Made by a program: the position numbers and the translations under genes. DNA of 64,000 bases from Streptomyces sp. NBC_00820 (GTDB taxonomy: Bacteria; Actinomycetota; Actinomycetes; Streptomycetales; Streptomycetaceae): positions 3,856,501 to 3,920,500 of the forward strand of contig NZ_CP108882.1 in the NCBI RefSeq assembly GCF_036347055.1. The letters are read 5' to 3'. Below, piece by piece: positions 16,165-24,887 of the stretch. How positions within the stretch are numbered: position 1 is the stretch's first letter; each line of letters begins with the position of its first letter. The notes below the pieces were generated by a model. The model was given only the letters and a program-made list of their open reading frames with translations. It searched no databases and had not been told where the DNA came from.

Positions 16165-16845
16165 CTACGGCTCGAACTTGTAACCCAGACCGCGCACCGT
16201 CACCAGGTAGCGCGGCGCCCCCGGGTCCGGCTCGATCTTCGCCCGCAGGCGCTTGACGTGGACGTCGAGGGTCTTGGTGTCACCGACGTAGTCGGCGCCC
16301 CAGACACGGTCGATGAGCTGCATACGGGTCAGGACGCGGCCCGCGTTGCGCAGGAGCATCTCCAGGAGGTCGAACTCCTTCAGCGGCAGGTCGACCTTCG
16401 CACCGGCGACCGTGACCACGTGACGGTCGACGTCCATACGGACCGGGCCCGCCTCCAGGGCGGCCGGGGTGACCTCCTCCGGCTCGCCGCGGCGGCGCAG
16501 GACGGCCCGGATGCGGGCGACCAGCTCGCGCGAGGAGAACGGCTTGGTGACGTAGTCGTCGGCTCCTATCTCGAGGCCCACGACCTTGTCGATCTCGCTG
16601 TCCTTGGCCGTCACCATGATCACGGGGACGTTGGAGCGGCCGCGCAGCTGACGGCACACCTCCGTGCCGGGCAGCCCCGGCAGCATCAGGTCGAGGAGAA
16701 CGAGGTCGGCGCCGTTGCGCTCGAACTCGTCGAGGCCGTCGGGGCCGGTCGCCGCCACGGCGACCTCGAAGCCCTCCTTGCGGAGCATGTACGACAGGGC
16801 GTCGGAGAAGGACTCCTCGTCCTCGACGACGAGCACTCGGGTCAC
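16165..16845 (-). CDS. phoP: Phosphate response regulator PhoP
   Basis: OmpR-class response regulator, 226 aa. The receiver domain has the acidic pair in VVEDEES, the phosphoacceptor Asp in LVLLDLMLPG (about residue 51), the Thr of VTAKD and the Lys of TKPFSS. The C-terminal winged helix (about 130-226) carries the recognition helix near DTKTLDVHVKRLRAKIE. In Streptomyces PhoP binds 11-bp PHO boxes and controls phosphate scavenging and antibiotic production. GTG 16845 overlaps the phoR stop by 4 nt (GTGA). Order and overlap are the standard phoR-phoP operon, and phoU is divergent upstream. Confidence 0.96.
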   Translation of the reverse strand: MTRVLVVEDEESFSDALSYMLRKEGFEVAVAATGPDGLDEFERNGADLVLLDLMLPGLPGTEVCRQLRGRSNVPVIMVTAKDSEIDKVVGLEIGADDYVTKPFSSRELVARIRAVLRRRGEPEEVTPAALEAGPVRMDVDRHVVTVAGAKVDLPLKEFDLLEMLLRNAGRVLTRMQLIDRVWGADYVGDTKTLDVHVKRLRAKIEPDPGAPRYLVTVRGLGYKFEP

Positions 16846-18089
16846 GGAAGGACCTCCGGGGAGGGGAGCGGTTCGTACGGGGATGGTTCGGCGCCGGCCT
16901 CGTCGTCGAGGTCCGGGTGCTGCTGTGCGCGGTCGCGGGCCCTGCCCGCCTCCGGCAGTCTGAGGGTGAAGGTGGAGCCCTGGCCTTCGGCGCTCCAGAC
17001 CGTGACCTCCCCGCCGTGCGAGGCGGCCACGTGCTTCACGATGGCGAGACCCAGACCGGTGCCCCCGGTGGCCCGCGAGCGGGCCGGGTCGACGCGGTAG
17101 AAGCGCTCGAAGACGCGCTCCTTGTCCTTCTCGGAGATGCCGATGCCCTGGTCCGTGACGGCGAGTTCGATCAGGTCACCGCCCGGCGCGGCCACCCGTC
17201 GGGCGGCTATGCCGACGCGGGTGCGGGCCGGGGAGTAGTTGACGGCGTTCTCGACGAGGTTGCCGAGGGCCGCCGCGAGCTGGCCGCGGTTGCCCCAGAC
17301 GTGCAGGTCGGCGGTGCCGCCCGCGGCCATCGTGATCTGCTTCGTCCCGGCCTGGTGCCGGCAGCGGTCCACTGCCTCGGCGACCAGCTCGTCCACCCGG
17401 ACGGGCTCGGCGTCCTCCAGCGGGTCGTCGTTCTGCACCCGGGAGAGGTCGATCAGCTCCTGGACCAGGTTGGTCAGCCGGGTCGCCTCGATCTGCATCC
17501 GGCCGGCGAAGCGCTCGACCGCCTCGGGATCGTCGGAAGCGTCCATGACAGCCTCGGAGAGCAGCGAGAGCGCGCCGACGGGTGTCTTCAGCTCATGACT
17601 CACGTTCGCCACGAAGTCACGGCGTACGGCCTCGATCCGGCGGGCCTCGGTGAGGTCCTCGACCAGCAGCAGGACCAGGCGGGAGCCGAGCGGGGCCACA
17701 CGCGCGGAGACGGCCAGCGCCTCGCCGCGCCCGGTACCGCGCCGGGGCAGGTCCAGCTCGACCTGGCGTATCTCGCCGTCCCGCCGGGTGTCCCGGGCCA
17801 TCTGGAGCATCGGCTCGACGGAGAGCTTGCCGCCGCGGACCAGCCCGAGGGCGTAGGCGGCGGAGCTGGCCTTCACGACGGCGTCCGCCTCGTCGAGGAC
17901 CACGGCCGAGGAGCGGAGCACCGAGAGCACGGTGTCCACGCCGGGCGGGAGTACGGCATCGGTGTGCAGAGAGGTCCTGGTGGGCCGCTTCTGGTCGCGT
18001 TCGCTCCAGCGGAACGCCAGCATGGCGATGACGCCGGTCAGCACCCCGGCGATCGCTGCAGCTGCGGCGACCGCCGCGTTCACGTCCAT
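16842..18089 (-). CDS. phoR: Phosphate-sensing histidine kinase PhoR
   Basis: 415 aa. One N-terminal TM segment (about residues 5-27, AAAAIAGVLTGVIAMLAF), no extracellular sensor loop, then a PAS-like region and the HisKA/HATPase core. The H-box is FVANVSHELKTPVGAL, the N-box NLVENAVNYSP, the G1 box VTDQGIGISEKD and the G2 box GGTGLGLAIVKH. It autophosphorylates and passes phosphate to PhoP under low phosphate. It is the first gene of the operon; the promoter faces phoU across 233 bp that contain PHO-box-like repeats. The C-terminal ~40 residues are acidic and disordered. Confidence 0.95.
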   Translation of the reverse strand: MDVNAAVAAAAAIAGVLTGVIAMLAFRWSERDQKRPTRTSLHTDAVLPPGVDTVLSVLRSSAVVLDEADAVVKASSAAYALGLVRGGKLSVEPMLQMARDTRRDGEIRQVELDLPRRGTGRGEALAVSARVAPLGSRLVLLLVEDLTEARRIEAVRRDFVANVSHELKTPVGALSLLSEAVMDASDDPEAVERFAGRMQIEATRLTNLVQELIDLSRVQNDDPLEDAEPVRVDELVAEAVDRCRHQAGTKQITMAAGGTADLHVWGNRGQLAAALGNLVENAVNYSPARTRVGIAARRVAAPGGDLIELAVTDQGIGISEKDKERVFERFYRVDPARSRATGGTGLGLAIVKHVAASHGGEVTVWSAEGQGSTFTLRLPEAGRARDRAQQHPDLDDEAGAEPSPYEPLPSPEVLP

Positions 18090-18322: not shown

Positions 18323-19012
18323 ATGCGGGACGCGTACCACGAGGAACTGGACTCGATCGGCGACGGTCTGGTGGAGATGGCCCGGCTGGTCGGGTCGGCG
18401 ATCGGGCGGGCCACGACCGCCATCCTCGACGCCGACCTCAAGCTGGCCGAGAGCGTGATCGAGTCCGACCAGAAGGTCGACGAGCTCCAGCACGACCTGG
18501 AGGCGCGCGCGATAGCGCTGCTGGCCCGGCAGCAGCCGGTCGCGACGGACCTGCGCATCGTCGTCACGTCGCTGCGGATGTCCGCCGACCTGGAGCGCTC
18601 CGGCGACCTGGCCCAGCACGTGGCGAAGCTGACCCGGCTGCGCTTCCCCGCGCGCGCGGTCCCGCAGGACCTGCACGCCACCATCCTGGAGATGGGCCAG
18701 CTCGCGCAGCGCCTGATGGCCAAGGCCGCCGAGGTCATCATCACCAAGGACGTCGACCTCGCCATGCAGCTGGAGCAGGACGACGACGAGATGGACCTCC
18801 TGCACCGCCACCTCTTCCAGCACCTGATCGACGAGCGCTGGAAGCACGGCATCGAGACGGCCGTCGACGTCACGCTGCTCGGCCGCTACTACGAGCGCTA
18901 CGCCGACCACGCGGTCGCCGTCGCCAAGCGCGTCGTCTACCTGGTCACCGGCGAGCACGCGGACGAACTCCAGGCGGACATCCAGCCGGTGACGGGGGTC
19001 GAGGGAGCCTGA
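18323..19012 (+). CDS. phoU: Phosphate signalling/transport regulator PhoU
   Basis: All-helical PhoU of 229 aa, two three-helix PhoU domains (about 1-110 and 115-220) with the metal-binding E/D-x3-D signature regions ADLERSGDLAQHV and YYERYADHAVAV. It modulates PhoR signalling and phosphate transport. ATG 18323 is preceded by AGGGAG. It is divergent from phoRP and expected to be PhoP-dependent through the upstream repeats. After the stop the sequence becomes repetitive until the Cys-rich peptide gene. Confidence 0.95.
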   Translation: MRDAYHEELDSIGDGLVEMARLVGSAIGRATTAILDADLKLAESVIESDQKVDELQHDLEARAIALLARQQPVATDLRIVVTSLRMSADLERSGDLAQHVAKLTRLRFPARAVPQDLHATILEMGQLAQRLMAKAAEVIITKDVDLAMQLEQDDDEMDLLHRHLFQHLIDERWKHGIETAVDVTLLGRYYERYADHAVAVAKRVVYLVTGEHADELQADIQPVTGVEGA

Positions 19013-19119: not shown

Positions 19120-19352
19120 GGCGCCTGACCCGGCGGCCCCGGCCGGGGCGCTGCCGGACCGGTGTCCGAGCCCCCGCGCGGGCGCCCCCTGGGCCGTCGC
19201 GCGCCGGCCGAGGGGGCTCGAAAGCCCGCGACCAGAGTGTGCGGGCGCCTCCGTGCGCCGTTGATGCGCCCGGATAAGTGGGCATGAAATGAGCGAGGGC
19301 ACCACGCCCGGCGTCGATGCCCCGTGTCGAGGCCCAGTGTCGAGGAGGACCC

Positions 19353-19508
19353 ATGGCCGAATCCCCCAGCACCACGCCCGACCCCACCCAGGACCGCGAG
19401 ACCGACCAGCCCGCGAACATCAGAAGCCTGCCGCTGGCCGCCGCGTGCGGCTGCGGTTCGGGCTGCGGGTGCGGGTGCCAGTCGGGCGCTCCCTGCCAGT
19501 GCGGCTGA
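19353..19508 (+). CDS. 51-aa Cys/Gly-rich peptide (metallothionein-like)
   Basis: A polar, acidic N-terminal half (residues 1-25, many Asp/Glu/Thr/Pro) is followed by LPLAAA and a tail of seven Cys in 19 residues (32, 34, 38, 40, 42, 48, 50), arranged C-x-C-x3-C-x-C-x-C-x5-C-x-C with Gly, Ser and Gln between. The ribosome site GAGGAGG ends a few bases before ATG 19353, the best in the neighbourhood. No signal peptide. Such Cys-x-Cys density is typical of metallothioneins. It does not match the mycobacterial MymT or cyanobacterial SmtA patterns I know. A RiPP precursor with a Cys/Gly core is the alternative, but no modifying enzyme lies nearby. A hairpin terminator follows 21 nt later. Confidence 0.8.
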   Translation: MAESPSTTPDPTQDRETDQPANIRSLPLAAACGCGSGCGCGCQSGAPCQCG

Positions 19509-19529
19509 CGGCGAACGACGAACGACCCG

Positions 19530-19561
19530 CGAGGGGCCCCGGACGACTCCGGGGCCCCTCG
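19530..19561. terminator. Terminator after the Cys-rich peptide gene
   Basis: 14-bp perfect stem (19530-19543 with 19548-19561), loop CGAC. Convergent with the secreted-protein gene ending at 19592. Confidence 0.88.
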
Positions 19562-19591
19562 TCGTGGTGAAGGCGGACGAGACGGTGCGGG

Positions 19592-20200
19592 CTACGCCGG
19601 CTTGCCCGGGGTGCCGTTCTGCGGCCAGTACTCGAAGCCGTTGCCGTCGTACCAGTCGAGCCTGGTCTTGCCGCAGACGCCGCTGTGGAAGTCGAGGAAG
19701 TCCGGGTAGACGGCCTTGACCGACTTCTTGGCGAAGGTCACGGAGATCTCGGTGGTGACGGTGCCCCGCGCGGGAATCGTGCCCAGGGACACGGACGCCG
19801 AATTCCACAGCGGCAGCGAGCCGTTGGTCTTCTCGTTCCAGTGCAGGCTCATCTTGTGCCAGTGGCCCTTGCCGACGCGCCATTGCACGGCGGGGGCCGG
19901 CCCGCGGTTCTTCATGAGATCGCCTATGGCGAAGACGTACGTGGCCTTGGACAGCGCCACGCCCTCGGTGTTGTGCACACGCAGGCGCGCGTGGAGCGGC
20001 ACGCCGGAACGCCGCGCCGTGGGTACCGCGGACCCGGCTGCGTCGGACACCGTCACCGCCCCGTCCCGGCACTTGTACGCCCCGGCCGGCGCGGCGGCCC
20101 TCGGCTGGGCGGCCTCGGCCACGACGGTGTTGGCCAGAGCGCCGACGACGGCGACGACCGTCACCCCCAGGACCGCTCTACGGCGAACGCCGATCTTCAA
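19592..20200 (-). CDS. Secreted protein of unknown function
   Basis: About 202 aa from TTG 20200, chosen because GAGGGGG stands just upstream and the protein then begins with a textbook signal peptide (KIGVRRRAVLGVTVVAVVGA, cleavage near AEAA). ATG 20221 in the same frame is the alternative. The mature domain looks all-beta (LHARLRVHNTEGV, VSLGTIPARGTVTTEISVTF), with two Cys (in YKCRDG and GVCGKTR) likely disulphide-bonded. No catalytic motif seen and family not recognised. It is followed by the terminator at 19530-19561. Confidence 0.75.
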   Translation of the reverse strand: MKIGVRRRAVLGVTVVAVVGALANTVVAEAAQPRAAAPAGAYKCRDGAVTVSDAAGSAVPTARRSGVPLHARLRVHNTEGVALSKATYVFAIGDLMKNRGPAPAVQWRVGKGHWHKMSLHWNEKTNGSLPLWNSASVSLGTIPARGTVTTEISVTFAKKSVKAVYPDFLDFHSGVCGKTRLDWYDGNGFEYWPQNGTPGKPA

Positions 20201-20333
20201 TGTGTCCCCCTCATCTCTCATCCCCGAACTCTCATCTCCCCGATGAGAGACCGGCATCGTAGCGACGGCGATCTACGACGATTGCCTGCCTTCTCCCAAA
20301 GCCCGGCCAAGGAAAGGTCATGGCGGACGGTAA

Positions 20334-20538: not shown

Positions 20539-21027
20539 TCAACTGACGGACGCGGCTCGCCACTGCGCAGTGATGCAGCCCTCTTCCATGTCCCACCACT
20601 CTTTGGCTACACCGTGGTTGAGGAGCTTTTGCACCTTGGCGAGATCGGCGGTGGGCGGGACGTCCAGGGCAACCATGCCGAACCGCTCTATGCCCTCGCC
20701 GTCGACTCCGAGTTCCTGAAACGCGTTGATCACGCTCTGCCGTGCGGCACCCGACCCGCCGTCACGGAACACGATGAGGCGGATGGTGCAGTTCTCCGAG
20801 CGGCGAACCACGTCGCCGGCCCATCGCACGCCTTCCTCGTCGGGCTCGGTTACCAGGATGTCCCCGCAAGCGATGCCACGGGCGAACCACGGGATGTTGT
20901 CGAGCCGTACGGTGCCGTCCCCCTGATCGACGGCCCACAGGCTCTCCACCGAGGCTGGGGGCCAGTTGTCTTCGACCTCAAGCCGGAAGTGCACCTTCAC
21001 GTACGGGACGCCGTCGGAAATCGTCAT
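20539..21027 (-). CDS. DUF4265-like protein of unknown function
   Basis: 162 aa from ATG 21027 (a longer frame starts at 21075 without better support). The region WAVDQGDGTVRLDNIPWFARGIACGDIL resembles the DUF4265 core, a small family of unknown role. No TM segment or signal. It lies alone between the two gpmA 3' ends and its third-position GC is lower than that of its neighbours, which suggests acquired DNA. The upstream gene on the same strand is gpmA, but the gpmA hairpin separates them. Confidence 0.7.
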   Translation of the reverse strand: MTISDGVPYVKVHFRLEVEDNWPPASVESLWAVDQGDGTVRLDNIPWFARGIACGDILVTEPDEEGVRWAGDVVRRSENCTIRLIVFRDGGSGAARQSVINAFQELGVDGEGIERFGMVALDVPPTADLAKVQKLLNHGVAKEWWDMEEGCITAQWRAASVS

Positions 21028-21168
21028 GCCGCCAAGGATGCCCAGCCCGGCAACGCCGGCCGCGGGCGGGTGCACAGGCGTATCGGCGCAGAGCGGAAGA
21101 CGGGGTCGCCTGCGCCTCGACCGGCGACAGCCAGCAAGCCATGACGGCGACGGCCCAGGCCCACGAGA

Positions 21169-23587: not shown

Positions 23588-24013
23588 TCACGGGTGCATC
23601 CGCGCCCCCTTGAGCACCTTGTCCACCCCGTTGCGCGGTCCGTACACCGCCAGCCCCACGACGTCGAGGTCCGCCGTCGGCACGGCCCGCACCGCCGCGC
23701 GGTTGTCGCGGTCGTTGCCCGTGGCGAAGAGGTCGGCGGTGAAGACCGCGCGGGGCAGCTCGCGGGACAGGGCCCGGCCGTGGGCCGCCTTCAGGGTCTC
23801 CTTCGTGCCCTCGAAGACCAGCACCGGCTGGCGGAACATCGGCAGGTAGGGGACGCCGTCCGCGTCCTCGTACGGCTCGCCGACCACCTCGGGCACCTGG
23901 CTGCCCAGGCCGCTGACCAGGAAGGCGGTGACGTTCAGGCGCTGCCAGGGTTCGAGGTCCTCGCGGAGCAGGACGACGATCTTCGTGTCGAAACGCGGGG
24001 GCTGTTCGTTCAT
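23588..24013 (-). CDS. DUF2000-family protein
   Basis: 141 aa. The sequence FDTKIVVLLREDLEPWQRLNVTAF and GVPYLPMFRQPVLVFEG match the small DUF2000 family, alpha/beta proteins of unknown function. No membrane segment. ATG 24013 is the natural start; an open frame continues into the divergent gene but without coding character. It is divergently transcribed from the AraC regulator with only 49 bp between them, so it is a likely target of that regulator. Confidence 0.8.
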   Translation of the reverse strand: MNEQPPRFDTKIVVLLREDLEPWQRLNVTAFLVSGLGSQVPEVVGEPYEDADGVPYLPMFRQPVLVFEGTKETLKAAHGRALSRELPRAVFTADLFATGNDRDNRAAVRAVPTADLDVVGLAVYGPRNGVDKVLKGARMHP

Positions 24014-24062
24014 GCACCGAGACTGCCGACCACCGGCCGCCACGGTCTTGTACGTTCTTTGC

Positions 24063-24887
24063 GTGGCCGCCGAACAGCCCGAAGTGTCCGCCTGGCGCCC
24101 GCGCGTCCCGGGTGTCGTGGAGGTCTTCCACGCCCACTTCACCGAGTACGCCTACCCGATGCACGTCCACGACGCCTGGACGCTGCTGATCGTCGACGAC
24201 GGCGCCGTACGGTACGACCTGGACCGGCACGAGCACGGCACCCCGCACGACACCGTCTCCCTGCTGCCGCCGCACGTGCCGCACAACGGCTCCCCCGCCA
24301 CCGAGCACGGTTTCCGCAAGCGCGTCGTCTATCTCGACGCCACCCGCCTCAGCCACGACCTCATCGGGCGTGCCGTCGACGGCCCCGATCTGCGCGACCC
24401 CGTACTGCGGCTGCGCGTCGGGCAGTTGCACCGTGTGCTCGCGCTCCCGGGCGAGGAACTGGAAGCCGAGAGCAGGCTGACGCTCGTCGGGGAGCGACTG
24501 CGCGGGCACCTCCGGGGCCGGGTGGGCGGCGGGGAGGGCCGGCGCGATCCCGGCCTCGCGCACTCCCTGCGCGAACTCCTCGACGACCGTGTCTCCGAGG
24601 GGCTCACGCTGGACGAGGCCGCGCGGCTGCTGAACGCCCATCCCGCCCATCTGGTACGGGCGTTCAGCACCGCCTACGGCATCGCCCCGCACCAGTACCT
24701 GACGTCACGCCGGATCGGCCGGGCGCGCCGGCTGCTGCTGGACGGGCTGGCTCCCGGCGAGGTGGCGGCGGTGGCCGGGTTCTACGACCAGGCGCATCTC
24801 ACGCGGCACTTCAAGAAGCTGGTGGGCGTGACGCCGGGGCGTTACCGGGGGGCCGGCCCGCGGGGAGAGCGGCGCCGCGTCACTTGA
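24063..24887 (+). CDS. AraC-family transcriptional regulator
   Basis: 274 aa. An N-terminal cupin-like effector domain (about 10-150, YPMHVHDAWTLLIVDDG with its His pair) is followed by two HTH motifs typical of AraC (LTLDEAARLLNAHPAHLVRAF and GEVAAVAGFYDQAHLTRHFK, near 185 and 235). GTG 24063 is used; it is close to the divergent DUF2000 start. The 3' end overlaps the opposing truncated gene by 8 bp. Likely to regulate itself and the DUF2000 gene. Confidence 0.87.
   Translation: MAAEQPEVSAWRPRVPGVVEVFHAHFTEYAYPMHVHDAWTLLIVDDGAVRYDLDRHEHGTPHDTVSLLPPHVPHNGSPATEHGFRKRVVYLDATRLSHDLIGRAVDGPDLRDPVLRLRVGQLHRVLALPGEELEAESRLTLVGERLRGHLRGRVGGGEGRRDPGLAHSLRELLDDRVSEGLTLDEAARLLNAHPAHLVRAFSTAYGIAPHQYLTSRRIGRARRLLLDGLAPGEVAAVAGFYDQAHLTRHFKKLVGVTPGRYRGAGPRGERRRVT

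Follow-up and report, generated by a model that had tools for sequence, protein, structure and literature searches.

A conserved seven-cysteine peptide gene beside phoU in Streptomyces, matching mtpA, and its probable role in soft-metal buffering

The window, the whole 64,000-nucleotide stretch of Streptomyces sp. NBC_00820 DNA that was analysed, carries a real gene for a small peptide with a constrained cysteine core, linked to phoU and preceded by a conserved promoter-like block. Its position beside phoU and its description match those of the already known mtpA (SCO4227 of S. coelicolor), and it is by these two features that we identify it with that gene; the loci compared came from species other than S. 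coelicolor and S. lividans. Taken as a whole, our best explanation is that the mtpA product is a cytosolic soft-metal thiolate buffer tied to the phosphate state of the cell, a reading that we consider probable. The features of the locus are the following.

16165..16845, minus strand: phoP, divergent from phoU; 97–100% identical matches in 49/49 loci; name taken from the published phoU-phoR-phoP layout
16842..18089, minus strand: phoR, divergent from phoU; 86–97% identical matches at the same position in 49/49 loci; name from the same layout
18323..19012, plus strand: phoU, upstream neighbour of mtpA (TIGR02135, E = 1.9e-56); upstream in 49/49 loci
19254..19270, plus strand: TGCGCCGTTGATGCGCC, near-invariant in 48/50 intergenic regions; direct repeat TGCGCC (11-bp step) overlapping a −35-like TTGATG (19261–19266)
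19285..19290, plus strand: −10-like TGAAAT, 18 nt past TTGATG; T, A, A, and T (nearly) invariant in 48 regions; putative promoter element
19343..19348, plus strand: ribosome-binding site AGGAGG, assigned by sequence; recurs in relatives
19353..19508, plus strand: mtpA, 51-aa seven-Cys peptide; homologues, invariant Cys, and purifying selection
19446..19505, plus strand: conserved core CGCGSGCGCGCQSGAPCQCG (residues 32–51); nearly invariant in 51 sequences and recognisable in relatives outside the genus
19529..19562, plus strand: 15-bp stem-loop, likely terminator, between mtpA and a convergent ORF; z = −4.7, without a T-run

The mtpA gene, its conservation, and its locus

The reading frame runs from the ATG at 19353 to the TGA at 19508 and encodes MAESPSTTPDPTQDRETDQPANIRSLPLAAACGCGSGCGCGCQSGAPCQCG (51 aa). 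Seven cysteines fall within 19 residues (32–50) in the exact pattern CxC-x3-CxCxC-x5-CxC, in agreement with the coordinates and spacing given in a preliminary description of this DNA. The good ribosome site that it claimed is also present: AGGAGG stands four bases 5′ of the ATG. The same hexamer precedes the start codon in 49 of 51 aligned sequences, L045 and L046 having GGGAGG (counted by eye). The leader, described there as acidic, is mildly so (five Asp/Glu and two Arg in residues 2–31, by eye), and this half of the peptide proved to be its variable part. As for the gene's own terminator, the stem-loop exists, and the 71-nt stretch containing it has a folding energy of −42.4 kcal/mol (z = −4.7), but it lacks a T-run and does not appear in the list of a consensus terminator scan.

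A protein search with the window peptide returned 352 homologues at E ≤ 0.01. Among the query and the best 120 of these, the exact seven-Cys spacing was kept in 116 of 121 rows, the exceptions being P0043, P0092, P0093, P0095, and P0103. At least 51 public contig loci matched, 50 titled Streptomyces and one titled “Actinobacteria bacterium OK074”; the codon set (n = 51) comprised the gene in the window (L052) and 50 public loci, L047 being dropped as truncated at its start. Each of the seven cysteines is conserved in all 51 sequences of this set, and Leu-26 and Leu-28 ahead of the core are kept in 51 and 50 of them, respectively. The dN/dS ratio (NG86) was 0.27 overall, 0.12 for residues 26–51, and 0.55 for residues 2–25; these figures are rough, NG86 taking no account of the strong codon bias in these genomes. 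The preliminary description had proposed Cys conservation as a check and had named unconserved cysteines or a ratio near 1 as arguments against the gene, and we found neither. The 352 homologues, the invariant cysteines, and the purifying selection thus establish that the mtpA ORF is a real gene.

Across the genus, 272 of 295 sampled genomes gave a match at E ≤ 1e-3 and 23 did not, some of the weak matches being probably spurious. The window genome (one contig, 8.1 Mb) holds a single copy, together with a chance-level match (E = 0.04) that contains a stop; the plasmids searched gave no match to the peptide.

The preliminary description was silent on the phosphate-regulation setting of the gene. 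In all 49 public loci with upstream sequence (L047 and L049, which end short upstream, were left out of the 51) and in the window, the peptide gene follows phoU on the same strand, at a distance of 99–580 nt, and phoR-phoP are divergent. MtpA/SCO4227 of S. lividans and S. coelicolor is likewise a small protein, whose gene comes directly after phoU and is divergent from phoRP; it has been termed a metallothionein, a metalloprotein, or a small metal-binding protein, and we know of no difference from the window gene. SCO4227 is tabulated as “Metallothionein protein (mtpA)” (PMC2267785, 2008), a review refers to the mtpA-encoded metalloprotein, its gene adjacent to phoU (PMC7866108, 2021), and a 2024 paper calls MtpA a small metal-binding protein. 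Some UniRef homologues are named “Metallothionein”, by annotation only. The earlier proposal of a candidate new metallothionein therefore keeps its second half, metallothionein-like being the best reading, and loses its first, the gene having been described as mtpA.

Several departures from the common arrangement were seen. Among 20 weak or extra genus matches, phoU was within the stretch examined in 16 and found in none of L113, L114, L116, and L166. L116 and L166 retain the promoter-like block within two mismatches. In L168, the peptide gene lies on the opposite strand from phoU and still carries the block without a mismatch, an arrangement that a local inversion would account for. Genome G354 has three copies (L112, L113, and L114), one phoU-linked with the block and two elsewhere without it. 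One of the two unlinked copies sits between an integrase gene and a DUF1775 gene, the latter adjoining L113; we take DUF1775 to be a copper-related family (YcnI), here a single case.

On the other side of mtpA, the window has a convergent 221-aa ORF (19592–20257, minus strand). It matched no Pfam family over the cut-off and nothing in the stretches examined around the 51 public loci, and may be a clade-specific insertion next to the conserved locus. Genes for a DUF4265 protein (20539–21075, minus strand; match in 2 of 51 public loci) and a DUF2000 protein (23588–24142, minus strand; 7 of 51) lie near the locus. The nickel partner SCO4226 (PF14026) had no match in the window genome, but it had none in any of 14 control genomes either, so that the result is not evidence of absence.

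The promoter-like block between phoU and mtpA

The stretch TGCGCCGTTGATGCG is common, almost unchanged, to 48 of 50 phoU-mtpA regions anchored on TTGATG, and GGGC and TnnAATGGG occur at fixed distances in the same 48; the remaining two, L039 and L043, are without the exact hexamer. TTGATG lies 57–101 nt 5′ of the mtpA ATG in the 48 regions. In 67 further close-relative rows (L054–L104 and L125–L140, some genomes being counted twice), the 17-mer TGCGCCGTTGATGCGCC was matched with at most two mismatches in every case, the best match lying 154–223 nt 5′ of the first Cys codon, compared with best matches of 3–6 mismatches in a shuffled control (20 shuffles per row). Among 18 diverged genus loci (L112, L115–L124, L160, L161, and L164–L168), 11 matched with 0–3 mismatches, and L115, L121–L124, L160, and L161 showed no clear site (4–6 mismatches). 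No site was found in the extra copies L113 and L114 (5 and 6 mismatches), in seven order-mates from outside the genus (6–8), or in 20 loci of a second family, f19 (5–8). The 8.1-Mb genome holds a single exact copy of the 17-mer. A wider regulon was considered and rejected, as one exact and two 2-mismatch matches compared with four for the reversed control pattern.

The block is predicted to be a sigma-70-like promoter (TTGATG, 18 nt, TGnAAT); a consensus promoter scan did not list it. The direct repeat over the −35, with its 11-bp step, is a possible operator and could be a site for some OmpR-type regulator. A 2006 paper with mtpA in its title (Ghorbel 2006) may contain a mapping of this promoter.

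GTTCACC-like heptamers, the motif units of the PHO box, were used to scan both intergenic regions. Between phoR and phoU, a heptamer pair with 3 mismatches was found in 50 of 50 loci, compared with 5.26 in shuffled sequence; in the phoU-mtpA region, pairs 11 nt apart had at best 5.18 mismatches on average over 50 loci against 5.47 when shuffled, and a tandem box was rejected there, the test being crude and a degenerate site staying compatible with it. The conserved promoter-like block and the lack of a clear tandem PHO box in the phoU-mtpA region fit what has been published on mtpA transcription, and we count this agreement in favour of our best explanation. A 5′ leader hairpin (AGGC/GCCT or GGGC/GCCC) that appeared by eye to covary was likewise discarded: stems averaged 4.58 pairs compared with 4.57 in shuffles, and the energies were at chance overall, with a mean z of +0.25 and values below −1 in 4 of 48 regions, including the one from the window.

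Published reports on mtpA expression disagree over PhoP control. In one strain mtpA is reported to have its own promoter and read-through from phoU, and low-phosphate induction is reported in others. It is described as metallothionein-encoding and up-regulated under Pi limitation independently of PhoP (PMC3282765, 2012), whereas PhoRP is said to regulate SCO4227 in PMC4991794. The latter source, where the protein is hypothetical, gives a fall to 0.14 in the wild type under oxidative stress, a poor fit to a simple antioxidant. In the 2024 paper, an mtpA promoter reporter rose with Mg and not with Mn or Zn, and a four-gene deletion is described as showing that the Mg effect on antibiotic output is independent of mtpA.

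Relatives outside the genus

Relatives share the core CxCGxGCxCGCQ[S/N]GxxCxC, from which a few members depart slightly. Outside the genus, they usually have an extra C-terminal Cys and a shrunken or changed N-terminal half. With a deeper profile (E ≤ 1e-4), a sample of 394 genomes from the class gave 59 with a match: 38 of the genus, 20 of family f19 (spanning 8 genera), and one of family f21, whose stretch contained no motif of this type. Ten order-mates of one further genus (f3/g3) matched at E ≤ 0.01, and the core was present in 7 of 7 examined; these seven have a thiolase gene as neighbour (one cluster in 7/7, of which one was scanned).

In f19 (L141–L159 and L162), the peptide gene is downstream of cydA and cydB, all on one strand, in 14 of 20 loci, which cover 6 of the 8 genera; among the other loci, L148 retains a fragment of cydB alone, and five show neither gene. 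One f19 representative of each was scanned, giving CydA as PF01654 and CydB as PF02322. A small conserved protein follows the peptide in 17 of 20 loci, and the one representative scanned had no Pfam match.

The window peptide matched 0 Pfam families at E ≤ 1 and no NCBIfam model. Metallothio_5 was weakly matched by relatives (best E = 0.002, 10 of 45 members; E = 0.0015, 2 of 14 in a second set), and the Pfam models of SmtA/BmtA-type metallothioneins were matched neither by the window peptide nor by the 45 relatives. Sequence searches of solved structures returned nothing for the window peptide (E ≤ 10) or profile A2 (E ≤ 1) and one chance match for profile A3 (E = 8.4).

Function, metal choice, and competing explanations

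Small size, high Cys content, and conserved CxC pairs, features of metallothioneins in the general sense, are all present in MtpA; binding of several metal ions in thiolate clusters would be the further hallmark. Judged from sequence, the most likely function is soft-metal buffering by the seven thiolates. MtpA is probably cytosolic, no signal peptide being apparent by eye; its C-terminal 20 residues would provide a CxC-rich, Gly-rich, His-free frame of seven thiolates wrapping soft metal ions, and the N-terminal half would be a variable tail. The gene would be transcribed from a separate promoter, with some read-through from phoU, and MtpA may buffer a thiophilic metal when phosphate supply alters the cell's metal speciation, and perhaps the thiol redox state too. 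Metal binding, the identity of the metal, the location, and the physiological role are what we infer from these features, with Cu(I) and Zn(II) as the candidate metals.

Known metallothioneins offer partial parallels. MymT, the copper metallothionein of Mycobacterium tuberculosis, is also actinobacterial, tiny, and Cys-rich, and its Cys spacing differs from that of MtpA. Fungal Cu(I) metallothioneins of the Neurospora type are CxC-rich and Gly/Ser-rich with seven Cys and no His, as in MtpA, and the order of their Cys spacings differs. MymT is reported to be needed for copper resistance, and a capacity of up to six Cu(I) has been predicted for it. The cyanobacterial SmtA/BmtA type is likewise a small bacterial thiolate peptide, with a phosphate-zinc connection reported for BmtA, but MtpA matches no Pfam family of this type and has no His in its core.

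Cu(I) is favoured by the CxC-rich, His-free core, the promoter without Zn response, the cydAB link, and the DUF1775 neighbour, and Zn(II) by the phosphate link and the BmtA precedent. We regard it as possible, but doubtful, that MtpA supplies or stores Zn(II) for use in phosphate starvation, for example by Zn alkaline phosphatases, and is not a Cu(I) buffer. SmtA-type zinc sites use His, which the window core lacks. The linkage to phoU would suit such a store, as would the report that BmtA abundance tracked a putative alkaline phosphatase, from which zinc supply to the enzyme was suggested; against it, the mtpA promoter was unresponsive to Zn in one reporter test (2024 paper).

An accessory role, in which the peptide delivers metal to PhoU or senses redox for it, appears improbable. 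It draws on the adjacency in 49 of 49 public loci and on the proposal in the review (PMC7866108) that PhoU and the mtpA product might serve oxidative-stress sensing or resistance. However, mtpA appears to have a separate promoter, relatives outside the genus have no match to the window PhoU within the 4–6 kb examined, and L116 and L166 keep the promoter block without a PhoU match. In one strain, moreover, phoU-phoRP without mtpA is reported to have restored the wild-type antibiotic pattern (2024 paper).

A RiPP precursor, whose leader would guide enzymes making azoles, thioethers, or another product from a Cys/Gly core, is very improbable, because the leader is variable and the core fixed (dN/dS 0.55 and 0.12) and because of how YcaO is distributed, despite the leader-plus-core appearance and the conserved hydrophobic Leu-26 and Leu-28 before the core. 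An azole-type precursor would have a conserved leader, a variable core, and YcaO nearby or co-occurring, and MtpA does not fit this pattern. The leader is short or dissimilar in diverged relatives, as in the 27-aa predicted member in L160. The enzyme search covered the YcaO class: the window genome has one YcaO gene, which lies 3.1 Mb from mtpA, in line with the earlier judgement that this rival was weak with no cyclodehydratase near. YcaO was found in 201 of 295 genus genomes; among the 20 genomes listed of the 94 without it, 19 carry the peptide (E ≤ 1e-3).

Returning to the soft-metal buffer, we tentatively propose an actinobacterial family of Cu(I)-buffering thiolate peptides, defined by the shared core, in which MtpA would form one branch and whose members would be attached to different systems: phosphate signalling with a gene-specific promoter in Streptomyces and cytochrome bd oxidase, which contains no copper, in f19. 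A limited literature search returned nothing on actinobacterial metallothioneins by that name or on a metallothionein with cytochrome bd in Actinobacteria, though papers mentioning metallothionein together with cydAB exist; this is thin ground for calling the wider family or the promoter block unpublished. It is in these two that the interest lies, the remainder being mostly ordinary and the gene known before. mtpA is present in most sampled genomes of an antibiotic-producing genus whose output depends on phosphate, and concrete handles for mutants and constructs come from the unvarying Cys core, from the promoter block specific to this gene, and from the relatives linked to cydAB. If the family proposal is true, the shared job of these peptides would be to hold soft metal when the respiratory or phosphate state shifts its availability.
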